A stretch of 64,000 nt of DNA from Bartonella bovis 91-4 (GTDB taxonomy: Bacteria > Pseudomonadota > Alphaproteobacteria > Rhizobiales > Rhizobiaceae): the NCBI RefSeq assembly GCF_000384965.1, contig NZ_CM001844.1:593341-657340 (forward strand), in the 5' to 3' direction. Below the pieces are notes generated by a model. The model made no database searches. It saw nothing but the letters and a program-made list of their open reading frames with translations, and had not been told where the DNA came from. Each line of letters starts with the position of its first letter. Positions within the stretch are counted from its first letter, which is position 1. Of this stretch, positions 61,444 through 62,115 are shown one piece after another. The position numbers and the translations under genes are program-made.

Positions 61444-62115
61444 AATGTTATATTTGCGTCATATCGCCATTATTGTGAATGAAAACGGATTGATAGGCAC
61501 GTATAATAATTAACTTTGATAACAAAATGTGAGGCAGAAGTAGATGTCCTTTATTGTATTAATACAATACAAGAAGGGTAGTTCTGAAATGGTTAATAGT
61601 TTTTGTGTTTTCATCTGGAAGTTAAATAAAACCATCTGCTAACTAACCTATCGGTAAGATTATTAAAGATTTTTGTTAAATATGGTCTTATTGATCTGCG
61701 TAATGAGAAATTTTCGTGTTCATATTATAAGTGATCGATTAAGTTTTTCATAAGGTATTTTAGAAGCGCTTGTGAATACAAAAATGTATAGCACATAATA
61801 AAGACCTGAATCTTATCATTACTTTTAAACGGAGAGGGCAATAAAAGCGATAAAGTAAGTTAAACACTCCGTTATTTTGTATGATTAATTTCTGATGTTT
61901 TTTATCTCTTGAGCAAGTTATAGATATAGTTTGGCGGAAAAAACGATTTTAATACGAAACAAAATGTCGATACTGATTTTTAATTATTTGCAAAAGTAGT
62001 AAATGGCAGTTTTCTAACTTTTTGTGTTAGGCAGTATATTCTAAATTATATTTTGTTTTTGGTCTAATTTTGATGAACAAACTTTTTAAACGGCTGTAAC
62101 TTAGGATTATTGATT
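61444..62115 (+). pseudogene. uppS: Decayed undecaprenyl diphosphate synthase gene
   Basis: UppS normally makes the C55 lipid carrier for peptidoglycan. Four family peptides appear in order but in three frames with stops between: MLYLRHIAIIVNENG (61444-61488; normally HIAIIMDGNGRWA), RNFRVHIISDR (61706-61738; NVRVRIIGDR), KDLNLIITF (61801-61826; LTLIVAFNYGGR) and SSKWQFSNFLC, stop, AVYSKLYFV (61995-62057; [23 protein letters not shown]). The catalytic Asp of MDGNG is Asn and the GRW is lost. Spacing matches a roughly 230-residue UppS. Its position between frr and cdsA is the canonical uppS site. The gene cannot be functional as read. Confidence 0.85.

Follow-up and report, generated by a model that had tools for sequence, protein, structure and literature searches.

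Wall synthesis is held to require UppS, which is also considered a drug target; how, then, does a bacterium build its wall once uppS is no longer a working gene? The question is raised by a stretch of 64,000 nucleotides from Bartonella bovis 91-4 (contig NZ_CM001844.1), hereafter the window, in which a first-pass annotation read the gap between frr and cdsA as a uppS pseudogene at its canonical site. That annotation offered two alternatives: either another prenyltransferase gene lies elsewhere in the genome, or wall synthesis has been reduced or rewired.

A uppS relic between frr and cdsA

A six-frame comparison of positions 61423-62260, covering the gap itself (61423-62240), with 12 intact UppS proteins of congeners was set beforehand as a possible refutation of the pseudogene, and it gave a clear match. 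As a union over the 12 queries, seven collinear pieces lie on the plus strand between 61436 and 62140, in the correct order and at about the right spacing (Table 1). They occupy all three frames, with five frame changes and six in-frame stops along them; slightly more of the gene is present than the four ordered peptides, in three frames and with several stops, that had been noticed at first. The best collinear chain scores 125.8 bits, a value that none of 200 dinucleotide shuffles reaches (mean 16.1, highest 46.1 bits). With the block order at the native site, this indicates common descent with UppS. Two weak minus-strand matches in the gap (E about 0.6) are noise.

Table 1. Positions in the window of the uppS relic pieces and of the two flanking genes.
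Feature	Coordinates	Strand	Basis
frr	60862..61422	+	intact upstream neighbour, 186-aa ORF
uppS relic N-terminal piece, degraded catalytic motif (Asp changed)	61436..61489	+	tblastn frame 2, at most 72% identity over 18 aa
uppS relic piece, counterpart of WLTVFAFSSENWTRP, 1 in-frame stop	61563..61640	+	tblastn frame 3, 50% over 26 aa
uppS relic piece, counterpart of LLKKFIKYDLAEL	61660..61704	+	tblastn frame 1, 53% over 15 aa
uppS relic piece, counterpart of RNVRIHVIGDR, 1 in-frame stop	61706..61783	+	tblastn frame 2, 46% over 26 aa
uppS relic piece, counterpart of LNLVVAFNYGGR	61794..61841	+	tblastn frame 3, 44% over 16 aa
uppS relic piece, counterpart of 26-letter UppS stretch, 1 in-frame stop	61980..62054	+	tblastn frame 3, 58% over 26 aa
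uppS relic C-terminal piece, counterpart of CFWPDFDE..., 3 in-frame stops	62054..62140	+	tblastn frame 2, 48% over 29 aa
cdsA	62241..63077	+	intact downstream neighbour, 278-aa ORF

The Asp of the MDGNGRW motif is catalytic in UppS. The relic reads VNENGLI at this place, the change of the Asp having been seen correctly at first sight, and the motif is intact in all 13 unbroken congener uppS genes. The longest stop-free stretch of the gap in any of the six frames is 62 codons, on the opposite strand, compared with the roughly 240 aa of a UppS reading frame. G+C is 39% in frr and 34% in cdsA but falls to 28% in the gap. Compared with two close relatives, the gap has diverged by a JC distance of 0.22-0.24, with 33-34 gap columns, and the synonymous distance of frr, pyrH and cdsA in the same comparison is 0.19-0.35; the two being similar, no constraint is visible, as expected of dead DNA. 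We found no Rfam match at E up to 0.1 that would point to an RNA gene in the gap, and no surplus of promoters or terminators (5 promoter-like sites against 6.4 expected). CdsA of the window is 90-91% identical to its counterparts in B. melophagi and Bartonella sp. WD12.1, which places the window in their lineage, and in both of these relatives the gap holds a relic as well. A sequencing error therefore cannot explain the relic, and the view that the decay is old was upheld. In the window uppS is a dead gene, and we regard the loss of the gene itself as practically certain.

How far the loss extends

The genome of B. bovis 91-4 is a single contig of 1,624,667 bp, listed as 100% complete. A PF01255 profile search of the whole of it gave no match, and all 14 control genomes were positive. 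The second prenyltransferase gene proposed at first is thus excluded for the cis-prenyltransferase family, and a second uppS elsewhere can be rejected. The same search of 61 sampled Bartonella genomes left 47 without PF01255. Among these, G018 is a draft of 85% completeness in which MraY is missing as well, so that incompleteness is the probable reason for its lack of UppS; among the 14 with a match, one (G052) carries a frameshifted uppS. When the count is restricted to completeness of 90% or more and contamination of 5% or less, 13 of 57 genomes have a match and 44 have none.

We also examined 43 strain-named genomes, a set that overlaps the 61, and PF01255 was not found in 38 of them. These include B. 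bacilliformis Ver097, B. koehlerae, B. elizabethae, B. grahamii, B. clarridgeiae and all three genomes of B. vinsonii subspecies (L030, L033, L036). A match was present in sp. F02, B. tamiae, B. apis, B. apihabitans and B. choladocola. The 43 were drawn from 48 Bartonella loci, leaving out five uncultured-Bartonella assemblies (L063-L066, L071), all of which have an open uppS.

Outside the genus the gene is nearly universal: UppS was found in 388 of 389 sampled Alphaproteobacteria, the sole miss being B. bovis 91-4, and in 392 of 396 genomes of the phylum sample, where the misses were the same genome, two other Bartonella and one draft (G514; 150 contigs, 95% complete) that is probably incomplete. 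uppS has therefore been lost in most sampled Bartonella and, within the samples taken, its loss is almost confined to them. In the locus set, a record titled Bacillus subtilis SK6B4 (L079, JAHREI010000002.1) holds a Pseudochrobactrum-like frr-uppS-cdsA locus and is probably mislabelled or contaminated.

One might object that uppS is intact and was missed, through sequencing error or because it lies on unsequenced DNA. Such cases may occur: G018 is an incomplete draft, and in the bee isolate B. choladocola BBC0122 (L062) a frameshifted uppS is accompanied by a broken UbiA-family gene in the same assembly, so the frameshift looks like an assembly error rather than another loss. As a general explanation, we consider this objection close to untenable, given the 44 good-quality genomes without any match, the single contig of B. 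bovis 91-4, the success of the same search throughout the Alphaproteobacteria and the shortened gap described below.

Repeated loss of the gene

Comparing the gap across Bartonella species, as had been suggested for the window, revealed a relic or a shortened gap in some and an intact uppS in others. We cut out 52 frr-cdsA gaps and tested 13 against 200 shuffles each. A uppS relic scored above all shuffles in eight, and in B. bacilliformis 1 of 200 shuffles reached its score. The relic was indistinguishable from shuffles in AR 15-3 (8/200), B. vinsonii berkhoffii (44/200), B. elizabethae (29/200) and B. florencae (31/200), and what counts these four as losses is the lack of a PF01255 match in their genomes rather than a visible relic. 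Four loci of the clarridgeiae-rochalimae group have a gap of no more than 423-457 bases, which means that uppS has largely been deleted there. In B. queenslandensis AUST/NH15 (L074) the gap runs into cdsA; compared with the other record of this species, its cdsA match is both longer and much weaker, possibly owing to a frameshift or an error in cdsA.

Trees were built with FastTree on five proteins and with IQ-TREE on 18 concatenated proteins from 21 genomes. The 18-protein tree joins sp. A05 (relic) to sp. F02 (intact uppS) as its sister with 100/100 support and places G004, which also has an intact uppS, among uppS-lacking lineages. A constraint that groups all 15 uppS-lacking rows is rejected (p-AU 0.010), so uppS was lost at least twice; one that groups all of them except A05 is not rejected (p-AU 0.172). 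The minimum number of changes on this tree is three if regain is allowed and four when losses alone are counted by eye; the deep branches are weak (47-78% bootstrap). F02 and G004 are unlikely to have regained uppS, since both genes lie at the native site with a dN/dS of 0.10 and a dS between them of 1.08, like that of their neighbours (0.76-1.19). Repeated loss suggests that compensation came before the gene decayed.

Peptidoglycan synthesis without uppS

The genome of B. bovis 91-4 contains one intact run of rsmH, ftsI, murE, murF, mraY, murD, ftsW, murG, murC, murB, ddl, ftsQ and ftsA (names assigned by reading, mraY and ftsW by NCBIfam). All 13 of these dcw genes were matched in all 21 genomes examined. 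Stops occur in 25 of the 273 matches, always within 15 residues of a match end, where the match may overrun the gene, and five matches cover less than 90%: ftsA in the four outgroup genomes, and murF in Bartonella sp. WD12.1 (L154), matched as a single piece over 52% of its length, where a frame break or an assembly error may lie. MraY is present in 60 of the 61 Bartonella genomes, with a partial match in G048, and in 18 of 18 strain-named genomes.

Published physiology agrees with this gene content. The ampicillin MIC of B. henselae and B. vinsonii in Grace's medium is 0.01-0.1 ug/ml, and beta-lactam MICs in BAPGM or Grace's medium are sub-micromolar, with incomplete killing by ampicillin and poor activity of the drugs tested in Schneider's medium (PMC8229624). 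MraY is reported among the changed proteins in B. quintana proteomics (PMC11983613). On the gene content seen here and the physiology given in these papers, uppS-lacking Bartonella still build peptidoglycan.

This bears on one possible answer to our question, namely that peptidoglycan is absent or made in traces so that no carrier is needed. The loss of UppS, together with that of the BacA-type undecaprenyl-diphosphate phosphatase (PF02673), absent from 60 of the 61 Bartonella genomes and kept only in B. tamiae (G003), would fit such an answer. We nevertheless judge it very improbable in view of the dcw genes, the near-universal MraY and its appearance in the proteome, and the low MICs, even allowing that ampicillin was not fully bactericidal and that results in Schneider's medium were poor. 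Of the two fates first suggested for wall synthesis, reduction is therefore unlikely, and rewiring is the option that remains. If uppS-lacking Bartonella still build peptidoglycan, they need a polyprenyl-phosphate carrier made by no known cis-prenyltransferase.

Could the carrier come from outside? Bartonella live in mammal blood, and almost all sampled genomes without UppS belong to this genus; undecaprenyl or dolichyl phosphate of the host or medium might be taken up and recycled. Two precedents lend this some appeal: dolichol tails have entered lipid II analogues in vitro (PMC12560707), and Rickettsia parkeri depends on isoprenoid precursors of its host (PMC6854040), although Rickettsia imports short precursors, the enzymes for the later steps being described as encoded in its genome. 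An argument against uptake comes from culture. B. henselae, B. quintana and B. vinsonii grow from 1e5 to 1-5e8 CFU/ml in a serum-free, nearly lipid-free medium of salts, casein digest, organic acids, sugars and hemin, a three-log increase with a yield 0.5 log below that of other media (PMC4978770). Trace lipid may have been carried over there in the hemin, the casein digest or the blood-agar inoculum, and uppS was checked by name only in B. vinsonii among these species, B. henselae and B. quintana being absent from our 80-locus set. With traces allowed for, such growth makes uptake of the carrier unlikely. Some de novo route that bypasses UppS is, in our estimation, probable.

Remaining prenyl synthases and phosphatases

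The only prenyl-chain synthases of known family that remain are two trans-type enzymes (PF00348), IspA and a longer DdsA-like protein. Both genes are present in all 61 genomes, with or without uppS, and G057 has one extra fragment; no replacement paralogue has thus been gained, and we rejected that possibility. The DdsA-like protein best matches octaprenyl and decaprenyl synthases of solved structure, and its Asp-rich motif is DDVVD or DDVID in all 20 genomes aligned; the NCBIfam octaprenyl model is its best match, below cut-off (304.6 of 412 bits). IspA scores above the NCBIfam cut-off for farnesyl diphosphate synthase, and the stretch CYSLIHDDLPA is identical in 20 of 20 genomes (L139:1083-1985 and 19 relatives), the next residue varying in four. 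IspG (GcpE) adjoins IspA, an indication that isoprenoid precursors are made. DXR-II has been listed for six Bartonella (PMC3847144).

A PAP2 phosphatase is encoded in every one of the 61 genomes; 13 carry a second copy, and uppS is retained in 12 of these 13. The protein is above the PF01569 cut-off, and its best NCBIfam match is undecaprenyl-diphosphate phosphatase, at 97 bits, below the cut-off of 229. Weak PF00953 matches beside PAP2, with E of 9e-5 to 1e-3, stay under the cut-off in 12 of the 61 genomes. In B. bovis 91-4 the 326-aa ORF that corresponds to them has no above-cut-off Pfam match, and we did not retain a further PF00953 enzyme.

DdsA and IspB are known for the side chain of quinones. 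The UbiA family is present in 61 of 61 genomes, so DdsA probably keeps its ubiquinone role, and a loss of UbiA that would have freed it from this role is rejected. One UbiA-family gene is in pieces with stop codons in G024 and G033. In a metabolic model of B. quintana, the ubiquinone route is incomplete by a few enzymes (PMC11983613).

We compared stem/crown ratios of 21 genes on the eubartonella stem. Acceleration before the losses was not seen in either MraY (ratio 0.75, rank 19 of 21) or DdsA (1.16, rank 15). No column of the MraY alignment separates genomes with uppS from those without it; one DdsA column (277) does, which may be chance with 6 against 14 rows. The largest ratio of the 21 is that of IspA (2.78). 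Nine IspA residues are fixed in all 16 eubartonellae against four outgroup rows, among them the Gly of KTG, which has become Ala (KTA) as in DdsA. As one result among 21 genes, it gives an exploratory hint that the enzyme may have acquired a new product.

A candidate wall carrier

DdsA being the only long-chain enzyme of known family left, an all-trans chain is by elimination the candidate carrier. We therefore propose, tentatively and with somewhat less than even confidence, that in uppS-lacking Bartonella the place of undecaprenyl phosphate is taken by all-trans decaprenyl phosphate derived from DdsA. The all-trans decaprenyl diphosphate that DdsA makes for ubiquinone would also be dephosphorylated by the PAP2-type phosphatase, and MraY would take the resulting decaprenyl phosphate as wall carrier. 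Carrier choice may have been relaxed in an ancestor of the uppS-losing lineages, which would have made UppS dispensable and let the gene decay more than once.

Geranylgeraniol is all-trans. MraY and MurG have been used in vitro to build lipid II analogues whose tails derive from geranylgeraniol, phytol or dolichol, and those with geranylgeranyl and phytol tails are good transglycosylase substrates (PMC12560707), which supports the idea that wall enzymes accept non-standard tails. We found no all-trans peptidoglycan carrier in the literature searched. The presence of DdsA in itself proves nothing about the wall, as ubiquinone alone explains it. E. coli also makes an all-trans chain, of C40. UppS is essential there (PMC12826051), which counts against an all-trans carrier; this essentiality, the steady rates of MraY and DdsA, the lack of a discriminating MraY column and the lead from IspA are what hold our confidence in the proposal below even.

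It is also possible, at perhaps one chance in three, that a cis or other long-chain carrier is made de novo by an enzyme unrelated to known cis-prenyltransferases, or by a trans enzyme whose product has changed, IspA being the candidate. This explanation would span all eubartonellae, the two with a surviving uppS among them. It accommodates the rate and fixed residues of IspA, growth in serum-free medium (PMC4978770) and the repeated losses, which fit a replacement already present. Against IspA as the changed enzyme stand its invariant CYSLIHDDLPA stretch, its score as a farnesyl diphosphate synthase and the exploratory nature of its rank; for an enzyme unrelated to known cis-prenyltransferases, no candidate gene was identified in the gene families searched. 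Taking the two explanations together, the carrier in uppS-lacking Bartonella likely does not come from a known cis-prenyltransferase and is either all-trans decaprenyl phosphate shared with ubiquinone or the product of an undescribed enzyme.

Implications and comparison with known systems

In the literature searched, in which subscription papers were mostly uncovered, we found no earlier report of uppS loss in Bartonella. Passages of drug-target papers on B. bacilliformis and B. henselae and of the B. quintana model (PMC11983613) name UppP, MurG or MraY, with no comment on UppS. Ant-symbiont Bartonellaceae are described as having a complete peptidoglycan gene set (PMC6044324). Either reading of the carrier, if true, would be the first case of a bacterial cell wall built without UppS, as far as this literature goes. 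Culturable, wall-making, beta-lactam-sensitive bacteria without a detectable cis-prenyltransferase raise the question of whether cis geometry and C55 length are needed at all, and it is testable now because one genus holds species with and without uppS. Inhibitors of UppS should fail on the species that lack it, and a carrier pool shared with ubiquinone, if it exists, would link respiration to wall growth.

Of the canonical undecaprenyl phosphate pathway (UppS, BacA/PAP2, MraY), Bartonella keep MraY, MurG, FtsW, a PAP2 phosphatase and farnesyl diphosphate synthase; they depart from it in the decay or deletion of uppS in most sampled species and in the nearly constant absence of BacA. The decaprenyl chains of mycobacteria and the nonaprenyl chains of Paracoccus are made by cis-prenyltransferases, whereas none was found in uppS-lacking Bartonella. 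The likeness lies in chain length: decaprenyl phosphate is the carrier in mycobacteria and nonaprenyl phosphate in Paracoccus (PMC12826051, PMC5039524), and the carrier proposed for Bartonella would also be other than C55. Rickettsia parkeri, like Bartonella, is a host-associated alphaproteobacterium with an incomplete carrier route (PMC6854040), but there the upstream precursor pathway is missing and downstream enzymes are encoded, whereas Bartonella have kept the upstream genes and lost the last step. Among the trans long-chain synthases DdsA and IspB, to which the single DdsA-like gene of Bartonella belongs, a role in the wall would be new.
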